The translations under genes were made by a program, and so were the position numbers. Below, piece by piece: positions 37,913 to 59,989 of a stretch of 64,000 nt of DNA (positions within the stretch are counted from its first letter, which is position 1; every line of letters begins with the position of its first letter). The DNA comes from Pseudomonas oryzae. GTDB lineage: Bacteria > Pseudomonadota > Gammaproteobacteria > Pseudomonadales > Pseudomonadaceae. The notes under the pieces are model-generated. The model did not search any database and was not told where the DNA came from. It worked only from the letters and a program-made list of their open reading frames with translations. Where the stretch lies: the NCBI RefSeq assembly GCF_900104805.1, contig NZ_LT629751.1:310001-374000 (forward strand). Direction: 5' to 3'.

Positions 37913-39247
37913 TCAGAGGCTGTCGGTGCCGGCCGACCAGGCGCGGCGGCGGCCGCTGGCCAGCAGGCGGTAGCCGGCGAAGGCGACGACGAAGGTGGCT
38001 GGCGCCGAGAAGGTCGCCAGGCTGGCGTCGCCGGCCTTGAGCAGGACGATGCCGGTCGCGGCGGCGGCGAACCAGGCGAGCAGGCCGCGGGCGTCGATGG
38101 CCGGCAGGCTGGCGTCGTCGGCCACGGGCACGCCGCGGGCGGCGAAGATGTGCGCCAGGGCGATGGCCACCCAGGCGACGATGAAGATGCTCTGCCAGGC
38201 CAGCGCCTGGAGGATGTAGCTGAACACGTCGAAGCGCATCAGCAGGTAGACAGTGAGGCCGGTGAGCGCCGCCCACACCACGTAGGGCACGCGACCGAGG
38301 CCGAGGCTGGCGCCCAGCGCCTGCAGGTTGGTGGCGCCGAGGAAGAAGTTGCCGGTGTTGATGCGCGTCTGGGTGACCCACACGAACAGCAGGCCCCAGA
38401 GGCCCATCAACTGGACGATCGACAGCACCACCGACACCTCGCTGACACCGCCCTCGGTGGGGATGGTGGCGGCGAGGAAGATCCCGGCCAGGCCGTTGAG
38501 CAGGAAGGCCACCGCGTAGAACGGCATGCCGAAGTTGACGCGCGCGTGGTAGTCGCTGTCCTCGGCGCGGCCGAAGCGGGCGTAGTCCCAGGTGTACATC
38601 ATCAGCACCCAGACGCCCATGAAGTAGGTGAAGCAGTTCCACCAGCCGTACGCGGGCGCGCCGCCTTCCGGCGCCAGCTCCAGCCAGGCGGAGGAATAGC
38701 CGTACTGGTCCACCGCCATCAGCAGCGCCGCGACCAGGCCGAGCAGGTACAGCGGCAGCAGCACGCCGTTGAGCTTGTCCAGCCAGCGCATGGCGTGGCC
38801 GAAGATCAGCAGCACGCTGTACACCACCACGATCAGGTAGGCCTGCCCGAGGCTCACCGCGCCGGCGTAGTGGTTGAGCGCCACGGCCATCACCGAGCCC
38901 TCGAAGGCGGCGTAGTAGATGGCGGTGGCGCTGAACAGCAGGGTCGCCAGCGCGGCGCCGGCGCGGCCGAACAGATGGCGCGAGAACTGCGCCACCGACA
39001 GTCCGCAGGCGATGGCGTAGCGGCTGATCACCGCGTTGATCGCCCCGTAGCAGACCACCGACAGCAGCAGGCCGATGATCGCGTTGCGCGTGCCGAAGCC
39101 CATCGCCAGGGCGGCGCCGACCACCAGGTAGAACATCGCGCTGCAGATGCCCCACCAGGCCATGGTCAGCGAGCCGCGGCTGAGACGTTGATCGAGGGGC
39201 ACCGCGCTATCGGTACCCGAATGCTGGTTTGCAGGTTTTCCGGCCAT
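37913..39247 (-). CDS. NCS1 family purine-cytosine permease-like transporter
   Basis: A 444-residue inner-membrane transporter with about 12 hydrophobic segments. It resembles the NCS1 (cytosine, allantoin, hydantoin) family: the N-terminal SRGSLTMAWWGICSAMFYLVVGAALAMGFG and the WNCFTYFMGVWVLMMYTWDYARF segment fit. Hydantoin transporters such as Mhp1 belong to this family, which suits its place upstream of a porin and hyuBA. The substrate is inferred from context. A modest AAGAGA site precedes ATG 39247. Confidence 0.85.
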   Translation of the reverse strand: MAGKPANQHSGTDSAVPLDQRLSRGSLTMAWWGICSAMFYLVVGAALAMGFGTRNAIIGLLLSVVCYGAINAVISRYAIACGLSVAQFSRHLFGRAGAALATLLFSATAIYYAAFEGSVMAVALNHYAGAVSLGQAYLIVVVYSVLLIFGHAMRWLDKLNGVLLPLYLLGLVAALLMAVDQYGYSSAWLELAPEGGAPAYGWWNCFTYFMGVWVLMMYTWDYARFGRAEDSDYHARVNFGMPFYAVAFLLNGLAGIFLAATIPTEGGVSEVSVVLSIVQLMGLWGLLFVWVTQTRINTGNFFLGATNLQALGASLGLGRVPYVVWAALTGLTVYLLMRFDVFSYILQALAWQSIFIVAWVAIALAHIFAARGVPVADDASLPAIDARGLLAWFAAAATGIVLLKAGDASLATFSAPATFVVAFAGYRLLASGRRRAWSAGTDSL

Positions 39248-39438
39248 GACAGATCTCTTGTTGTTGTTGGAAGAAGCGAGAGGTCATGACAGTAGAAAAA
39301 TCGGCGCGTCCGGGCTTGCCGCTGCGGGCCCGGGCTTTTGTCGCTGGGTGTACTGGAATGGCGCGGCATTTGCCGCGCGGGGTATGGCAAGTAGGGGCAA
39401 CTGTGCGAATGACTGGTGTGAGGCTACAGCAAGCGTCT

Positions 39439-40878
39439 TTATTGCTTGCTACTTGGCTTGACCCCACCCCGTCGGCCCAGCCCGAAGCCGACGCGGTACA
39501 GGTCGGGCATGTCGATCCGGCCATCCTTCTTGCGCTCGAGCAGACCGAGGCGCTGCAGGTCTTCACAAATGCCGTCCCAGCCGCGTTCGGCATGCTGTGG
39601 TGGGAGGCGATCATCCAGCGAGGCAGAGGCCGGCCCGGACGGGAAGGCATCTTGCCAGCGCTCCAGAATCAGCTCGTAGTTGCAGGGCACAGTGAGACCT
39701 TTCAGGCATCCGAGGAAGGTCCTGATCCACGGAAACTCTTCGGCAAGTTCTTCGACCCGATTGTCCGATGCCTCTCGAATTCCACGCTTGATGCTTTCGT
39801 GGTGGATTGGCAGCTCTTCGGCCGAATAGCGCTGAACCGAATCTTCTACCGCCTGGCGGATGGCGGCCAGGAACGAGCGTGGTGAGGTCTGACCACGGCC
39901 ATCGGCCAGATGACTGACGGACCAGATATAGGGCACGCCTCGACGAGGATCACGTCCCATCCATGGGCCGGCCAGTTTCTCGAATAGGGTGCGTTGCAGC
40001 GGTGTTTCCCGGCGTGCTTCATCGGGCAGTTGCCAGATGCCTTCACGTTGGCTCGGCTGGCAGCCCGCGACAGTCTGGAAAAGGGTGCGCAGCTGTTCAC
40101 CCGCGCTATCGGGTGCATTGATCAGGCGCTGCCAGAGCAGACCATGCAGGTCGTGACGCTCCCAGTTCAGGGTGGCCCGGCTGGCCAGCAGTTTGGAGGC
40201 GTCCGCGAAGTTGGTCACATTGCGCTCCATCTGGTCTTCCCGCAGGAAGACCTTGGCATGCAGATGCGAAAAGGACTTCAGCCAGAGGGCGGCTTCCAGC
40301 AGGCCGCGCACGATTTCGTCCATGCTGCGCCAGTCGTTACTGGTGCGGTCCAGTGCATCGAATACAAACAGGGCATGGCGGTTCTCACCAGCGAATTTCT
40401 GGTTGGCCTGCACCATCAGCCGGGAAACGTCTTCCGGGTTCTGTTTCAGCCATTCGACTCGCGCCGGCCACCGGGAGGCCGGTAGCGGGTGGTCGAGCCG
40501 CTCGGCAAGCCAGTGCAGGATGACGGTGCGCCAGATGTCATAGGGTGCATGACCGGCCGTCCGTAGCTGGAAAAAGCTGTCGCGGTTCGGATGTCGGTCG
40601 ATGTTCTCATTGAGCGAAAAGCCGATGCAAACCTCGGCCCGGTCCAGCTGGCGCACGCTGCTGCCGATCAGACTGCGCAGCCCGCTATCACCCAGCACTG
40701 CAGTCCAGAAGGACTTGCCGACTCCCCGCCCCCCGACCACCAGTGTCGACTCCAGATTGAGCGCCTTGATGTGTGCCGGAGGAATGTACAGGTTGCTGGC
40801 TGCCGGGGTTTCCCCGTAGTTGCTGGTTTCCAGCTGAGCTTCCAGCATTGCCTCTCGAAGGGCTTGGGCCTGGGTCAT
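39439..40878 (-). CDS. P-loop ATPase, third gene of HEPN/KGGVGR cassette
   Basis: A 479-residue P-loop NTPase with Walker A GGRGVGKS (49-56) and a Walker B-like FVFDALDR (171-178). Long alpha-helical regions follow. A small C-terminal winged-helix-like segment (WDGICEDLQRLGLLERKKDGRIDMPDLYRV) follows these. The layout recalls STAND-type signalling ATPases, but I do not recognise a named family. Its ATG overlaps the stop of the KGGVGR ATPase by 4 bases, so the two are made together. Composition is somewhat less GC-rich than the flanking core genes. Likely role: sensor or effector regulator in a defence module (inference). Confidence 0.78.
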   Translation of the reverse strand: MTQAQALREAMLEAQLETSNYGETPAASNLYIPPAHIKALNLESTLVVGGRGVGKSFWTAVLGDSGLRSLIGSSVRQLDRAEVCIGFSLNENIDRHPNRDSFFQLRTAGHAPYDIWRTVILHWLAERLDHPLPASRWPARVEWLKQNPEDVSRLMVQANQKFAGENRHALFVFDALDRTSNDWRSMDEIVRGLLEAALWLKSFSHLHAKVFLREDQMERNVTNFADASKLLASRATLNWERHDLHGLLWQRLINAPDSAGEQLRTLFQTVAGCQPSQREGIWQLPDEARRETPLQRTLFEKLAGPWMGRDPRRGVPYIWSVSHLADGRGQTSPRSFLAAIRQAVEDSVQRYSAEELPIHHESIKRGIREASDNRVEELAEEFPWIRTFLGCLKGLTVPCNYELILERWQDAFPSGPASASLDDRLPPQHAERGWDGICEDLQRLGLLERKKDGRIDMPDLYRVGFGLGRRGGVKPSSKQ

Positions 40879-42182
40879 GCGTCTGTCCGGGTCTTTTGCT
40901 GAACGAATGCGGAAATGTACTGGATGAGTTCGGCAAAGACATGGTCGACCTGCCGCTGATCCAGACTGCCCATCCGCTCATGGAGTGATTGCAGGGCAAA
41001 AAAACCCCGATTCCAGCTGATCGGCAGGGGATAGTGCTGGCCGGTGATGTCGTCGACATCGAATGTCCAGCAATTCTCGCCTATCTCCCCTGCGGGGATT
41101 TCATCGTAGAGCGCTTCGAGAAACAGCTCGTGGCTGCGTTCGCGCAGGCCATCGAAGTACTCGGTGCGACGTTCGTCATCCGGCAGCATGGCGCCGACCA
41201 CCTTCAGGCGCTCACGAATGGTCGGAGCGACATCGTACTGCTGCCAGTGCTCGAACAGGATGCGATAGCCTGTCCAGGTCTGCTCGCCGTCGATGGCAAA
41301 CAGCAATACCAGGCCGGCTCCCAGATCGGTCACGCAGCTGGAGGCCACTTCGTCGATGCCTGCGCGCGAGTCGAGCAGGATCACGTCGGGACGATGGCTT
41401 TGCTCCAGCTCGGCAATCAGGCGAGACAGGCGTGTCGACCAGCCTTCGCGGTTGCCATCGGCGAACACCTTGGGCATCCATACCCGTCCGAGCTTGTTGA
41501 TGTATTCCCCGGGATGGCTGCCGTGTGCGGGCACGACCCGAATTTCGCCATCATGGCTCAATGGGCTGATGCTGACCATTTCTCCCAAGATTGCCGCGCC
41601 ATTATCGACCAGATCCTCGACCAGCCAGTCGGTGATGCCGAAGGCCGGTCGGTAGTCCTCCGGCAGCAGGGCCGAGGACAGGCCCGGCGATTCCAGGTCC
41701 AGGTCAAGCACCAGTACCCGCTTGCCGGCTTGCGCTAGTGACCAGGCTGTCGCCGCCAGTGCGGTCGAGCGGCCTACTCCTCCCTTGATGGAAAAGAACA
41801 CGATGCGGGGAGCACCTGTGGACTTGGCGGATATGCGTGCCCAGTCGCCTTCGGTAGCCAGCCGGTCGACAACCCACACCTGCGGGAAATCGCGCAGGGA
41901 GAAGCTCGGGGCGTCGCTTCTGGCCTGCTGCAGATCATCTTCGAACAGGATTGCGCGCTCCACCGGCCAGGCATGTGGCCCGAGCCGTTCAGCCAGTTGC
42001 GCGCAGATGTCCTTCAGTGCCTGTATGGCTTGTGGATCGCTGCGGACCGTCTCCAGAGCGATCAACCGTACCCGGCCATTGAGATCACGGTTGATCAGCA
42101 ATTCTCCGATGGTGTGCAGGTTGGGTGCGCTCTGCTGTAGAACAGCATGAATGGTGGTCAGAATCTGGTCGAAAGTGCTCAT
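40875..42182 (-). CDS. KGGVGR-type ParA/MinD-like ATPase
   Basis: A 435-residue ATPase of the SIMIBI (ParA/MinD) class with a variant deviant Walker A, KGGVGRST (133-140), where the usual KT/KS is replaced by RS. It has a switch motif LDLDLESPG (Asp160, Asp162) and Walker B ILLDSRAGID (Asp271). An N-terminal helical domain of about 120 residues precedes the ATPase. This KGGVGR variant occurs in accessory, probably defence-linked operons. It overlaps the upstream HEPN-like gene and the downstream ATPase by 4 bases each. Confidence 0.85.
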   Translation of the reverse strand: MSTFDQILTTIHAVLQQSAPNLHTIGELLINRDLNGRVRLIALETVRSDPQAIQALKDICAQLAERLGPHAWPVERAILFEDDLQQARSDAPSFSLRDFPQVWVVDRLATEGDWARISAKSTGAPRIVFFSIKGGVGRSTALAATAWSLAQAGKRVLVLDLDLESPGLSSALLPEDYRPAFGITDWLVEDLVDNGAAILGEMVSISPLSHDGEIRVVPAHGSHPGEYINKLGRVWMPKVFADGNREGWSTRLSRLIAELEQSHRPDVILLDSRAGIDEVASSCVTDLGAGLVLLFAIDGEQTWTGYRILFEHWQQYDVAPTIRERLKVVGAMLPDDERRTEYFDGLRERSHELFLEALYDEIPAGEIGENCWTFDVDDITGQHYPLPISWNRGFFALQSLHERMGSLDQRQVDHVFAELIQYISAFVQQKTRTDA

Positions 42183-42595
42183 AGCAGCCCCTCACGTCTG
42201 GCCTTGCGAATCAGGTTGCAGACAAGCTCGGCGCCGGTCCGGTGATCGGTCACACGTGGCGTACTGAAACCCGCCTGGCTGGAATAGCGCTGCGAGGCAT
42301 GCCAGTTGGAAAAGGGGTTGTCAGATGGCAGGGCATAGCCCGTGCCTTGGCGATGCCCTGTCCGATAGTCTTCATAGCGCATCCAGAGCTTATCGACATG
42401 CTGCTGATCCTTTCTGTCAGAAGGGAGACTCTTCTGAAAGTCATATTTCATGCCAAACGCGAGCATCAGTCTCTTCAGGCCACACTCGGCGCTCATACCA
42501 TATAGATGATCGGCATTCGCCAGTCGCTGATTGGTCAGCAGCAGTTCGGCATCCTGCCAGTGACGTTCATGGGCATCGAGAAAGTCGACCTGCAT
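42179..42595 (-). CDS. HEPN-like small protein, first gene of the cassette
   Basis: A 138-residue mostly helical protein. The segment HERHWQDAELLLTNQRLANADHLYGMSAECGLKRLM (9-44) matches the HEPN pattern, with a conserved AEC-x2-K turn. R61-KDQQ-H66 is a good fit to the R-x4-6-H motif of HEPN ribonucleases. It could therefore be an RNA-cutting effector. This is my reading of the sequence, not a database call. It is the promoter-proximal gene, with AAGGAG 6 bases before the ATG, and it overlaps the next gene by ATGA. Confidence 0.7.
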   Translation of the reverse strand: MQVDFLDAHERHWQDAELLLTNQRLANADHLYGMSAECGLKRLMLAFGMKYDFQKSLPSDRKDQQHVDKLWMRYEDYRTGHRQGTGYALPSDNPFSNWHASQRYSSQAGFSTPRVTDHRTGAELVCNLIRKARREGLL

Positions 42596-42660
42596 GAAGG
42601 CTCCTTGATGGGGGCGGTACGCTCGGTGCAGCCGATTATGGCATGCGAGCCCTCAAGCGC

Positions 42661-44334
42661 TCAGCGCGGATACAGCGGCGGCAGCGAGCCCGGCTTGGGC
42701 GGGCGGGCGCTGTCGCTCTGCGGCGGGGGCGGCAGGCTGCCGATCGCCTGCCACAGCGCCTCGCCCTGCCAGGAGTGGCCGCTGGCGCTGTACAGCGCGC
42801 CGTTGAGTCCGTCGAGGGCGTCGGACAGCGGCACGTAACGGGCGGCCATGTCGGCCAGGGTTTCCGGCTGCTGGCGCGCCCAGGCGTCGAGCGCCTGGCG
42901 GGTGGCCTGCGGGTCGTTGCCCTGGCAGGCGCGCCGCAGGTCGTCCTGCAGGGTACGCGGGCTGGGGCCGCTGGCGGCGGCGCGGATCACCGCCGGCAGG
43001 CGCCGCGCGCGCCACCACAGGCCGAAGCCGAGCAGGCTGGTCAGGCTCAGCAGGGCGGTGGCCAGTTGCCAGGGCCACAGCAGCACCTCGCCCTCGTTCA
43101 GGTCGGCCGGCAGCACCGGCGCGGTCTCGACGATCAGGCTCGGGTTGTCCTCCACCTCCAGGCTGTGCGCCGGCAGGCGGCTGCGCACCAGGCGGTCCTC
43201 GACGGTGTTCCACCACACCACCTCCAGCGCCGGTAGCTCGATACGCCCGGCGGCGGTGGGTACCAGGGCGACGCTTTCCTCGCGGCTGCCGATCAGCCCC
43301 TGGGCGCCCTGCCGGTTGTGCAGGCGCGGCTGCTCGGGGTAGCTGCGCAGCCACTGTTCCTGTTCCGGCGCCTTCAGCACCGGCAGCTGCGCGCTGGCCA
43401 GGCCTTCGGCGCGCAGCAGGATGCTGCGGGTCAGCGAGTCGCCGACGCGCAGCGTGCCCTGCGCGGGGCTCCAGTGTTCGCTGAGGGTCAGCACCCGCGC
43501 CGGCAGCCAGGGGGCTTCGGCCGGGTAGTCGGCCGGCTTGGGCTTGACCCGCAGGATCAGCTCCGGCGACTGCACCTGCAGCGGCTTGCCGCTGCGCGGA
43601 CCGAACGGCTGGGCGCCGCCGTCGCCGGTGTCGAGCGCGGTGGCGTCGAAGCGCAGGGCGGGAATGCGCAGCTCGCCGCTGTGCTGGGGGAACAGTGCGT
43701 AGCGGGTCTCGATCACGCCGTGGCGCACGCCGTCGAGCATCACCTCGTGGGTGCGCGGCGCGCCCAGCGCCTCGACCCGCGCGTCGCCCAACTCCAGCGG
43801 GCTGAGCCGGCTGTCGTCGTAGAGGGGCACCGAGTGGTAGACGCGCAGGGTGAGGATGGCCTGGGCCTGCACGTAGACGCTGTCGCTGTCCAGGCTGGCG
43901 TCGATGAACACCGGGGCCTGGCTGGCGGCCGTCACCGGCCGGGCTTCGCTGACCTCCAGTTCGATGGCGGCCGAGCGCGCGCTGCCGACCTGCAGCGGCG
44001 GGATCAGCAGACGGCCGGCGATCTTCGGCTGCAGGCCGATCACCAGGCGGCTGTCGAGGTCGCCCGGAGCCTTGCCCTCGTCGTGGTAGGTCAGCAGGCG
44101 GGTGTCGAGCACCTCGAACTGCGCCGCCAGCACGCTCAGGTCGGGGCGTCCGCTCGGCGCGGGGTCGTCGCTCTCCAGGTTGAGCTCGACGATCTCGCCG
44201 ACCGCCAGTTCGCTGCGGTCGACCCAGGCGCGCAACTGCTCGGCCCGCGCCGGCTGGCCGAGCAGCAGGAGCGCGGCGGCGAGCAGCAGGGCGTGGACGG
44301 CGCGGCTACGGAGACAGTGGGTCGTGGCGGTCAT
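42661..44334 (-). CDS. BatD-family protein
   Basis: A 557-residue protein with a signal peptide (about 1-31, ending QPARA). It has tandem immunoglobulin-like/oxygen-tolerance domains of the BatD type (for example LRAWVDRSELAVGEIVELNLES and APVFIDASLDSDSVYVQAQAILTLRV). One membrane segment lies near 440-460, with a cytoplasmic tail. It is the last gene of a MoxR-VWA operon and overlaps the preceding VWA-TPR gene by 29 bases. Such operons have been tied to envelope stress and metal or oxygen tolerance, but the precise role is unsettled. Confidence 0.87.
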   Translation of the reverse strand: MTATTHCLRSRAVHALLLAAALLLLGQPARAEQLRAWVDRSELAVGEIVELNLESDDPAPSGRPDLSVLAAQFEVLDTRLLTYHDEGKAPGDLDSRLVIGLQPKIAGRLLIPPLQVGSARSAAIELEVSEARPVTAASQAPVFIDASLDSDSVYVQAQAILTLRVYHSVPLYDDSRLSPLELGDARVEALGAPRTHEVMLDGVRHGVIETRYALFPQHSGELRIPALRFDATALDTGDGGAQPFGPRSGKPLQVQSPELILRVKPKPADYPAEAPWLPARVLTLSEHWSPAQGTLRVGDSLTRSILLRAEGLASAQLPVLKAPEQEQWLRSYPEQPRLHNRQGAQGLIGSREESVALVPTAAGRIELPALEVVWWNTVEDRLVRSRLPAHSLEVEDNPSLIVETAPVLPADLNEGEVLLWPWQLATALLSLTSLLGFGLWWRARRLPAVIRAAASGPSPRTLQDDLRRACQGNDPQATRQALDAWARQQPETLADMAARYVPLSDALDGLNGALYSASGHSWQGEALWQAIGSLPPPPQSDSARPPKPGSLPPLYPR

Positions 44335-57668: not shown

Positions 57669-59138
57669 ATGTGGCGTGAATCGCGAATCCTCCTGATTGA
57701 TGACAATCCGCAACGACGCCACGATCTGGTGGTGATCTTCGAGTTTCTTGGCGAGGCCTGCTCCAGTGGCACCAGCACCGAGGTGGTTGCCGGCCTGCCG
57801 GCCGAAGAGCTGGCCCAGCTGTCCTGCGTGCTGCTCGGCCAGGTCGACAGCAAGGGCGGGGTGCCGCGCCTGCTCAAGCAGCTGGGCGCGCCGGCAGCCA
57901 ACCTGCCGCTGCTGCTGATCGGCGAGCAGAGCACCCTCGACTGGTCGGAAGACCTGCGCCGTCGCGTGCTGGCCCGCCTGGACATGCCGCCGAGCTACAA
58001 CCAGCTGCTCGACTCGCTGCACCGGGCCCAGGTCTACCTGCAGGTCTACGACGTCGCCATCGAGCGCGGCCTGCAGCGCGAGTCCAACCTGTTCCGCAGT
58101 CTGGTCGGTACCAGCCGGGCGATCCTCCAGGTCCGCCAGCAGATGCAGCAGGTGGCCGGGACCGAGGTGGGGGTGCTGCTGCTCGGCGAGGCCGGTACCG
58201 GCAAGGAAGTGGTGGCGCGCAACCTGCACTACCATTCGGCGCGCCGCGAGTTCCCCTTCGTGCCGTTCAGCTGCACGGCGATCGATCCGGAGCTGCTGGA
58301 CAGCGAGCTGTTCGGCTACGAGGAAGGCGCCTTTCCGGGCGCCATCGCCAGTCGCCGCGGCCGCCTCGAGCTGGCCAACGGCGGCACCCTGTACATCGAC
58401 GAGGTGGCCGACCTGCCGGCGGAGCTGCAGGTGCGCCTGCTGCGCGTGCTGCAGGAAGGCAGCTTCAAGCGCCTGGGCAGCGACCAGGTACACCCGGTGG
58501 ACGTGCGCCTGATCGCCGCCAGTCGTCACGATCTCGATCGGCGGGTGGCGGAAGGTAGCTTCCGCGACGATCTCTATTACCGCCTCAACCAGTTCTCCAT
58601 CGAGCTGCCGCCGCTGCGCGAGCGGGTGGAGGACATTCCCCTGCTGCTCAACGAGCTGATCGCGCGCCTCGAACACGAGAAGCGCGGTTCGATCCGCTTC
58701 AGCTCGGCGGCGCTGATGTCGCTGTGCCGCCACGACTGGCGCGGTAACGTGCGCGAGCTGGCCAACCTGGTCGAGCGCCTGGCGATCATGCATCCCTACG
58801 GCGTGATCGGCGTCGGCGAGTTGCCGAAGAAGTTCCGTCACATCGAGGAGGAGGTGACCCTGGCCGGCAACGTCGTGGCCGAACAGGGCTCCAGCGTGCT
58901 GCCGCCGGGCGCCCTGCCGGGGCTGGATGTGCCGGCGCTGCTGCCGGTCGGTGGGCTCGATCTCAAGGATTACCTGAACAATCTCGAGCGCTCGCTGATC
59001 CAGCAGGCGCTGGACGACGCCGGCGGGGTGGTCGCCCGCGCCGCCGAGCGCCTGCGGGTGCGCCGTACCACTCTGGTGGAGAAGATGCGCAAGTACGGCA
59101 TGGGCCGGCGCGATGACGACGAAGGAGATCTCGCGTGA
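57669..59138 (+). CDS. FleQ-like enhancer-binding protein with altered sigma54 loop (GAFPGA)
   Basis: This 489-residue protein is clearly homologous to FleQ, the c-di-GMP-responsive master regulator of flagella and exopolysaccharide. The N-terminal receiver-like domain lacks a standard phosphorylation pocket (MWRESRILLIDDN). The AAA+ domain has Walker A GEAGTGKE (173-180) and Walker B TLYIDE. The residues corresponding to c-di-GMP contacts are kept (LFRS 141-144, R184/N185, E329, R333). The Fis-type helix-turn-helix at 440-475 is nearly identical to FleQ. The sigma54-contact loop reads GAFPGA at 220-225 instead of GAFTGA, so activation of sigma54 promoters should be lost. It overlaps a FleN-like gene by 4 bases. 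Confidence 0.88.
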   Translation: MWRESRILLIDDNPQRRHDLVVIFEFLGEACSSGTSTEVVAGLPAEELAQLSCVLLGQVDSKGGVPRLLKQLGAPAANLPLLLIGEQSTLDWSEDLRRRVLARLDMPPSYNQLLDSLHRAQVYLQVYDVAIERGLQRESNLFRSLVGTSRAILQVRQQMQQVAGTEVGVLLLGEAGTGKEVVARNLHYHSARREFPFVPFSCTAIDPELLDSELFGYEEGAFPGAIASRRGRLELANGGTLYIDEVADLPAELQVRLLRVLQEGSFKRLGSDQVHPVDVRLIAASRHDLDRRVAEGSFRDDLYYRLNQFSIELPPLRERVEDIPLLLNELIARLEHEKRGSIRFSSAALMSLCRHDWRGNVRELANLVERLAIMHPYGVIGVGELPKKFRHIEEEVTLAGNVVAEQGSSVLPPGALPGLDVPALLPVGGLDLKDYLNNLERSLIQQALDDAGGVVARAAERLRVRRTTLVEKMRKYGMGRRDDDEGDLA

Positions 59139-59989
59139 ACGGCGCGCCTGCGCAGAAGCGCGCGGCGCCGCAGGTGATCGCCATCGCCAGCGGCAAGGGT
59201 GGCGTCGGCAAGACCCAGGCGGCGATCAATCTGGCCTGGGCGCTGGCCGCGCGCGGGCGGCGGGTGATGCTGCTGGATGCCAGCTTCGCCCTGCCCAACG
59301 TCGACGTGGCTCTCGGTCTGACCCCGCGGCGCACCGTGCAGGATGTGCTGGCCGGGCGCTGCCGTCTGGTCGAGGCGCTGAGCCACGCCACGGCGGGCGT
59401 GCAGGTCATCGCCGGCTCCTCCGCGGCGGACTCGCCGTGCGAGCCGGGGATGCGCCAGCTGGCCGGTCTGGTCCAGGCCTTCACTGCCCTGCCGCAGGCC
59501 CCCGAGGTGCTGCTGATCGACTGCGCGCCGGGTATCGGCCCGGCGGTGACCACCCTGCTGCATGCCGCCAGCGAGGCGCTGCTGGTGGTCAACGATGAGC
59601 CGGCCGCGCAGGCCGATGCGCTGGCGCTGATCAGCCGGCTCAACCAGCGCTACGGCATGAGCCGTTTCCGTCTGCTGGCCAGCATGACCTTCGCCCAGCA
59701 GGAGGGCAGGGGGCTGCACGAGTCGTTGCTGCGCCTGACCGAGCCGCTCTCCGGCGTATCGCTCGACTATGTCGGCGCCATTCCCTTCGACGAGTCGCTG
59801 CGCCGCGCCGTGCAGCGCCAGCGTCCGCTGTTCGAGGTGTTCCCGCGCAGCCGCGCGGCCCAGGCCTACGCGGCGCTGGCCGAGAAGGTCGACGGCTGGG
59901 CGCTGCCCGGCTCGCCACGCGGGCACCTGGAGTTCTTCGTCGAGCAACTGATCGCGATGCAGACGGCGCCGCGCCGGGCGAAGGCCTGA
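59135..59989 (+). CDS. FleN-like MinD/ParA-family ATPase with altered switch motif
   Basis: A 284-residue homologue of FleN, the ATPase that binds FleQ and limits flagellar number. The deviant Walker A is intact (GKGGVGKT, 20-27). The switch I motif reads LDASFALPNVDV, where FleN has LDADLGLANVDV. The second Asp (position 50), needed for hydrolysis in MinD-type ATPases, is Ser here. Walker B is VLLIDCAPGIG. The C-terminal PRGHLEFFVEQL matches FleN. Translation starts at GTG 59135, overlapping the FleQ-like stop (GTGA). fleQ and fleN are normally in separate flagellar operons. Confidence 0.87.
   Translation: MNGAPAQKRAAPQVIAIASGKGGVGKTQAAINLAWALAARGRRVMLLDASFALPNVDVALGLTPRRTVQDVLAGRCRLVEALSHATAGVQVIAGSSAADSPCEPGMRQLAGLVQAFTALPQAPEVLLIDCAPGIGPAVTTLLHAASEALLVVNDEPAAQADALALISRLNQRYGMSRFRLLASMTFAQQEGRGLHESLLRLTEPLSGVSLDYVGAIPFDESLRRAVQRQRPLFEVFPRSRAAQAYAALAEKVDGWALPGSPRGHLEFFVEQLIAMQTAPRRAKA

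Follow-up and report, generated by a model that had tools for sequence, protein, structure and literature searches.

An intact copy of the phage-defense candidate PDC-M28 in Pseudomonas oryzae, with a predicted HEPN effector and two ATPases

We describe a three-gene cassette in a 64,000-nucleotide stretch of the Pseudomonas oryzae genome (contig NZ_LT629751.1, positions 310,001 to 374,000; hereafter the window, with positions counted from its first nucleotide) and find that it is an intact copy of PDC-M28, a cataloged phage-defense candidate (PDC). The three genes, called A, B, and C, match the PADLOC-DB v2.0.0 models PDLC04558 (PDC-M28A; 184.3 bits), PDLC04559 (PDC-M28B; 600.6 bits), and PDLC04561 (PDC-M28C; 678.5 bits), each over nearly its full length. 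The composition, adjacency, and common strand of the genes are those of PDC-M28, and we found no difference between the two. An initial annotation had held that no described system has this composition, which fails because PADLOC already lists PDC-M28A/B/C; the cassette thus matches a named system, although that system is itself only a candidate. An antiphage function of the cassette is very likely.

PDCs have been described as unpublished putative candidates that were found through "guilt by embedding" and mostly lack validation (PMC12988326). The literature searched, which did not reach preprints, including the PDC source preprint, contained no mention that we found of PDC-M28 or Sll1717, and no publication in it on KGGVGR or wider themes could be tied to the A-B-C triad. 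In parts of the DefensePredictor report, four of 31 validated systems have HEPN domains and seven have P-loop NTPase domains (PMC13092281). We found no experimental test of PDC-M28 in the literature searched, although the DefensePredictor supplements lay outside the search and a printed test is possible.

Results

Organization and composition of the cassette

All three open reading frames (ORFs) are intact and lie on the minus strand, together spanning 39439–42595 of the window, within a host genome of 4.64 Mb in a single contig. Gene A (42179–42595) encodes a HEPN-fold protein of 138 amino acids (aa); gene B (40875–42182) encodes a KGGVGR-variant MinD/ParA-like (SIMIBI) ATPase of 435 aa with an N-terminal extension of ~120 aa; and gene C (39439–40878) encodes an AAA+/STAND-like P-loop ATPase of 479 aa, the C-terminal part of which is helical and winged-helix. 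The genes are joined by two ATGA overlaps, between the stop of A and the start of B (42179–42182) and between the stop of B and the start of C (40875–40878), as initially annotated. The strings AEC-x2-K, KGGVGRST, GGRGVGKS, and FVFDALDR that had been picked out are all present in the translations.

The flanking genes, named by eye, are those for BatD and an NCS1-type permease. The cassette had been noted as less GC-rich than its neighbors, and its GC content of 60.7% is indeed the minimum among 244 sliding windows of cassette length (step 250; mean 68.5%, sd 3.1); GC at third codon positions is 0.64–0.72 in the cassette genes and ~0.96 in both flanking genes. A promoter scan of 39200–42900 found none, with 0.8 expected.

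Gene A encodes a HEPN-fold protein with an alternative set of invariant residues

The AlphaFold model of A (predicted local distance difference test score [pLDDT] 96.0; predicted template modeling score [pTM] 0.90) confidently assigns it a HEPN four-helix fold, and the solved structures nearest to the model are HEPN domains, AbiV among them, so that the fold proposed for the small protein is borne out. Searches of solved-structure sequences with A, C, and profiles of both gave nothing usable.

The features marked in A are E37-x3-K41, H66, W98, and R103-Y104. Five of these residues (E37, K41, H66, R103, and Y104) are each invariant in 30/30 relatives of A, even in those with as little as 18% identity to the protein of the window. 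The ribonuclease-like motif first assigned to A, R61-x4-H66, fares differently: the string is present, but by chance, since only H66 is conserved and R61 is not, and we reject it as the active site. Across the same 30 relatives, the classical HEPN RNase motif Rx4-6H is not conserved, as R-x4-6-H ends at H66 in just nine and starts from R103 in three.

An alternative HEPN active-site pattern is described for AbiV, of Lactococcus abortive infection, and AF0298-type HEPN-T proteins in sections of PMC3710099. A has the HEPN fold and the elements of this pattern, namely E-x3-[KR] (E-x3-K in A), an arginine kept without the motif histidine, and a second conserved histidine between helix 2 and the next helix. 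In the model, H66 follows a helix at residues 25–46 and stands just before one at residues 67–79, which we take as helices 2 and 3. We therefore replace the R61-x4-H66 assignment with a predicted effector site of H66, R103, and E37. A is not filed as AbiV because it scores 13.3 bits against the Pfam AbiV family (PF18728), below the cut-off of 27.1. The two also differ in company: the partners of A are two ATPases, whereas AbiV is two-component, to judge only from the title of a PDB entry. Nor does the cassette fit a HEPN-MNT toxin-antitoxin pair, which would call for an adjacent minimal nucleotidyltransferase gene: the family matches of B and C are confined to ATPases, and the other neighbor of A is batD-like (by eye).

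Genes B and C encode two predicted ATPases

By its sequence, B is a KGGVGR SIMIBI ATPase: it scores 200 bits against the NCBIfam family of KGGVGR-motif variant ATPases (NF047398; cut-off 90), and KGGVGRS is kept in 31 of 34 B ORFs. A second MinD/ParA-like ATPase is encoded elsewhere in the window (59135–59986, plus strand, 284 aa); the PADLOC model for B aligns only with its P-loop region (33.4 bits, residues 8–51).

C scores 89.1 bits against the NCBIfam Sll1717-family P-loop ATPases (NF047389; cut-off 75). Its AlphaFold model (pLDDT 92.2; pTM 0.90) points to an AAA+/STAND-like ATPase with a winged helix and a STAND/ORC-like fold, in keeping with the winged-helix-like C-terminus noticed earlier, and the closest folds are those of PAB2304, SSO1545, CED-4, NRC4, and Cdc6/ORC. 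In this model, C appears to resemble NLRs and bacterial NACHT-type STAND switches, with an AAA+ core joined to helical and winged-helix parts like those of CED-4 and NRC4. The window C differs from these switches in that it has just 479 aa and that the candidate effector is encoded on its own by a small gene, with the gene for a SIMIBI ATPase standing between the two. No repeat sensor or effector domain was recognized in the window C with Pfam and NCBIfam searches.

The triad recurs as a unit

With the host genome counted in every case, the C profile matched 3/8 genomes of the genus and 11/369 of the class (8 of the 11 at E < 1e-100), and the A profile matched 6/298 genomes of the family and 23/398 of the phylum, some of the latter weakly. 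A query of genome contigs with C alone returned one close relative, Pseudomonas sp. A-1; an alignment query might reach further. Phage records yielded no C match.

We read 37 loci, comprising 36 regions around matches and the window. A, B, and C are all present in 32, a count that is not an unbiased rate since the loci were selected through A or C matches, and 33 sets are ordered A-B-C on one strand. One locus (L048) holds two convergent triads within 8 kb. The remaining five are a decayed copy (L051), a locus cut by the contig start (L052), two distant C homologs alone (L060 and L062), and an A-like gene with no "B" other than an Mrp-type ATPase encoded on the opposite strand (L082). A search with the B domain, in a sample that overlaps the earlier ones, matched 38/299 genomes at 1e-15. 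Among 30 loci from this search, all 15 B proteins of 435–480 aa adjoin A and C; this count leaves out three listed ORFs of that size (G687:C81, which is L073, a triad; G709:C156; and G762:C218). The conservation of the triad as a unit, on which the first proposal depended, is supported.

Over 23 loci, the pairwise distances of A, B, and C are correlated (r = 0.81, 0.84, and 0.93; permutation p 0.0005), a pattern that indicates common inheritance, not contact. Decayed copies were seen in L051, L054, L071, and L078, with fragments, an A-B deletion, a stop in A, and C in two frames. Such decay is the kind of turnover seen in defense genes.

Some copies lie within defense operons and on plasmids

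As to the check for defense islands that the initial annotation proposed, some copies are embedded in defense operons of three types. In L053 and L055, the triad has a DUF1156 methylase (1432 and 1419 bits) on one side and a PLD-helicase (1395 and 1364 bits) on the other; in L058, it lies between HsdS and HsdM of a type I restriction-modification (R-M) system; and on a Sphaerotilus plasmid (L159), it separates pglX of BREX-2 from the DUF6079 and pglZ genes of that system. In a pooled PADLOC scan, 112 neighbors matched 261 families and an equal number of control proteins matched 24, but this tally is inflated because a single HsdS matches 55 families, and the controls were hand-picked, so that it gives rough support only. 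In L076 and L080, which belong to one genus, the triad is near an unannotated protein of 784–790 aa, for which Pfam gave no match at 1e-5, and near a phosphoenolpyruvate (PEP)-utilizing enzyme of 900–925 aa.

C matched 21 of 72,556 plasmid records. Four of these were read: with our own profiles, all three genes were found on the plasmids from Enterobacter, Burkholderia, and Sphaerotilus, and C only on the one from Streptomyces. The Enterobacter and Burkholderia plasmids are conjugative, and the former has an integrase gene adjoining the set.

Fused forms and a putative two-gene sibling

L067 encodes B and C as a single chain, and so do two divergent loci, L061 and L083 (L152 and L083 are one and the same site). 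In six further loci (L146–L151), the KGGVGR domain occurs in proteins of ~950 aa (truncated at the edge of the locus) that give a weak in-frame match to C (E 1.7e-15 to 8e-7). The first A profile found an A-like ORF directly upstream of the fused protein in L148, L150, and L151 (E 8e-5 to 8e-4), and a widened profile, built with these ORFs, found an A-like gene in five of the six, all but L149. At 1e-5, the PADLOC C model matches the fused protein of L146 and not those of L148 or L151, and the PADLOC A models miss all three A-like proteins tested (L147, L148, and L061). These six loci appear to represent a two-gene sibling, in which a small A-like HEPN gene is followed by one fused B-C protein; we found it in no listing. 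An HsdS-like ORF (by eye) lies immediately upstream in L151.

In L074, C is extended by two further domains, a calcineurin-like phosphoesterase (3e-15) and NACHT (9.6e-12). This is the one C protein checked for the NACHT module, which it shares with NACHT-type STAND switches; the long C ORFs of L070, L072, and L073, from the same genus, read like it by eye, and the four range from 1337 to 1803 aa. RDWARD- or ASDFAS-like low-complexity repeats occur near the C-terminus of the long C in L070, L073, and L074.

The insertion site is empty in some sister genomes

The insert extends over approximately 39320–42660 (minus strand; borders by eye), from the batD-like stop codon to the hairpin preceding the permease gene. 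It begins at that stop codon and stops before a hairpin that follows the batD-like gene in empty sites; no terminal repeat was seen by eye at its borders. The cassette stands between the batD-like and permease genes in G000 and G005, and these genes are ~140 bp apart in G002, G006, and G007, where the site is empty. In G003 and G004, the gap is ~2.2 and ~1.0 kb, respectively, and holds other genes, by eye an AraC-like regulator in G003 (L100) and a VOC-like gene with a duplicated flank copy in G004 (L101). G001, which gave no permease match, was left out of the comparison. Since the batD flank of G005 resembles that of the empty G006 and the flank of G000 resembles that of G003, genes have probably entered or left this site on more than one occasion. 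Together, the few genomes matched at each rank, the empty sister sites, and the conjugative plasmids support a patchy and mobile distribution of the triad.

Between G000 and G005, amino-acid identity is 0.91–0.96 across A, B, and C, and 0.14–0.18 of fourfold sites differ (the G002, G003, and G004 rows, with nucleotide identity of 0.32–0.47, were out of frame and are excluded). Because the proteins are 91–96% identical while 14–18% of fourfold sites differ, all three genes look kept by selection.

Discussion

How might the three proteins work together? In the mechanism that we infer, C, a STAND-type (NLR/CED-4-like) ATPase, would be the likely sensor switch, and B, a KGGVGR SIMIBI ATPase, would be its nucleotide-dependent partner, which either keeps A inactive or relays the signal. 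A, a small AbiV/HEPN-T-like protein, would be the effector. Infection, or the blocking of a neighboring R-M or BREX system, would release A, which would then cut host or viral RNA through H66 with R103 and E37, not through a classical Rx4-6H, stopping translation and phage growth in an abortive infection. The fold and invariant residues of A argue for its role as effector, the fold and fusions of C for its role as switch, and the place of B and the B-C fusion for a relay. We put the probability that the cassette is a mobile three-gene abortive-infection module, in which two NTPase switches gate a HEPN RNase, at roughly 0.52. The initial annotation had likewise proposed two NTPases regulating a HEPN RNase; the HEPN fold, the recurrence, and the genomic context support this, and the motif and the novelty claimed for it fell away. 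Because copies are embedded in R-M and BREX operons, the module may serve as a back-up to failure of these systems, much as PrrC answers failure of PrrI according to the sections of PMC3710099 that treat it.

Several observations weigh against such a module. Core-like genes, not defense genes, directly adjoin the copy in the window, and the setting of L076 and L080 is beside a PEP-utilizing enzyme. When 20 large neighbors were tested singly against PADLOC, few matched (5/10 at 1e-60 and 1/10 at 1e-20), and one of the five at 1e-60 is an FtsK matching an SspH model. The order in which B and C would signal is drawn from analogy only. B may not hydrolyze ATP, because MinD/ParA-like domains of other conflict systems were predicted to be inactive (PMC7159879). 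Finally, A may be non-catalytic, because the canonical Rx4-6H is missing.

In an unlikely alternative, the cassette is a defense module in which A is a non-catalytic HEPN adaptor, an RNA- or protein-binding subunit, and the effect comes from B and C, with a STAND assembly acting through C or its fused domains. Rx4-6H is absent at H66 in 21/30 A proteins and at R103 in 27/30, A remains a separate small gene even where B and C are fused, and the C of L074 gains an enzyme-like metallophosphoesterase module together with NACHT. An adaptor is harder to reconcile with the invariance of E37, K41, H66, R103, and Y104 in 30 sequences, which fits the proposed alternative HEPN active site, and with a solved AbiV entry that its PDB title calls an RNase of a two-component antiphage system. 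More improbable still is a toxin-antitoxin module, with A as the toxin and B (with C) as the antitoxin, for which maintenance of mobile DNA would be primary and phage defense secondary. To our knowledge, STAND ATPases do not commonly serve as antitoxin partners, and the embedding in R-M and BREX operons and the NACHT fusion point to immunity, although the tight overlaps of the operon and the copies on conjugative plasmids would suit such a module. Its model would be the MAE_18760 and ParA/Soj dyad (Anantharaman et al. 2013), a HEPN gene adjoining a ParA-like ATPase gene, and sections of PMC3710099 propose pairs of this kind as toxin-antitoxin modules. The cassette shares the ParA-like neighbor, but the MAE_18760 HEPN keeps Rx4-6H whereas A does not conserve it, and the triad adds a third component, an AAA+/STAND-like ATPase, as a separate gene or a fused domain. 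A housekeeping or metabolic function unrelated to conflict seems very improbable for this operon. The core-like flanks of a copy that looks kept by selection and the PEP-utilizing enzyme in L076 and L080 could be read this way; the patchy presence (C in 3/8 genus genomes and A in 6/298 family genomes), the low GC, the empty or alternative sites in sister genomes, the broken copies, and the embedding in defense operons speak against it.

PDC-M28 might even be the type of a wider immune class, although this is doubtful. In such a class, NLR-like STAND and KGGVGR SIMIBI ATPases in series would gate a separately encoded AbiV-like HEPN RNase, the two-gene sibling and the metallophosphoesterase-NACHT forms would be included, and the whole would act as a second line of defense, triggered by defeat of the surrounding R-M or BREX system.

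The cassette is real, conserved, and probably a defense system of an already cataloged candidate kind. The present analysis corrects the active-site assignment, reads C as NLR-like, and adds fused and NACHT-linked forms as well as examples of embedding operons. A candidate system without a mechanism, so far as we found, now has a testable anatomy, with a predicted H66/R103/E37 site, a switch that is probably NLR-like, and a SIMIBI ATPase in which a near-fixed arginine replaces the P-loop lysine. At 3.2 kb, the window copy is compact and easily cloned. Should the proposed mechanism prove true, an immune RNase would be under the control of a MinD/ParA-type switch, and there would be a link between small HEPN toxins and NLR-like signaling.

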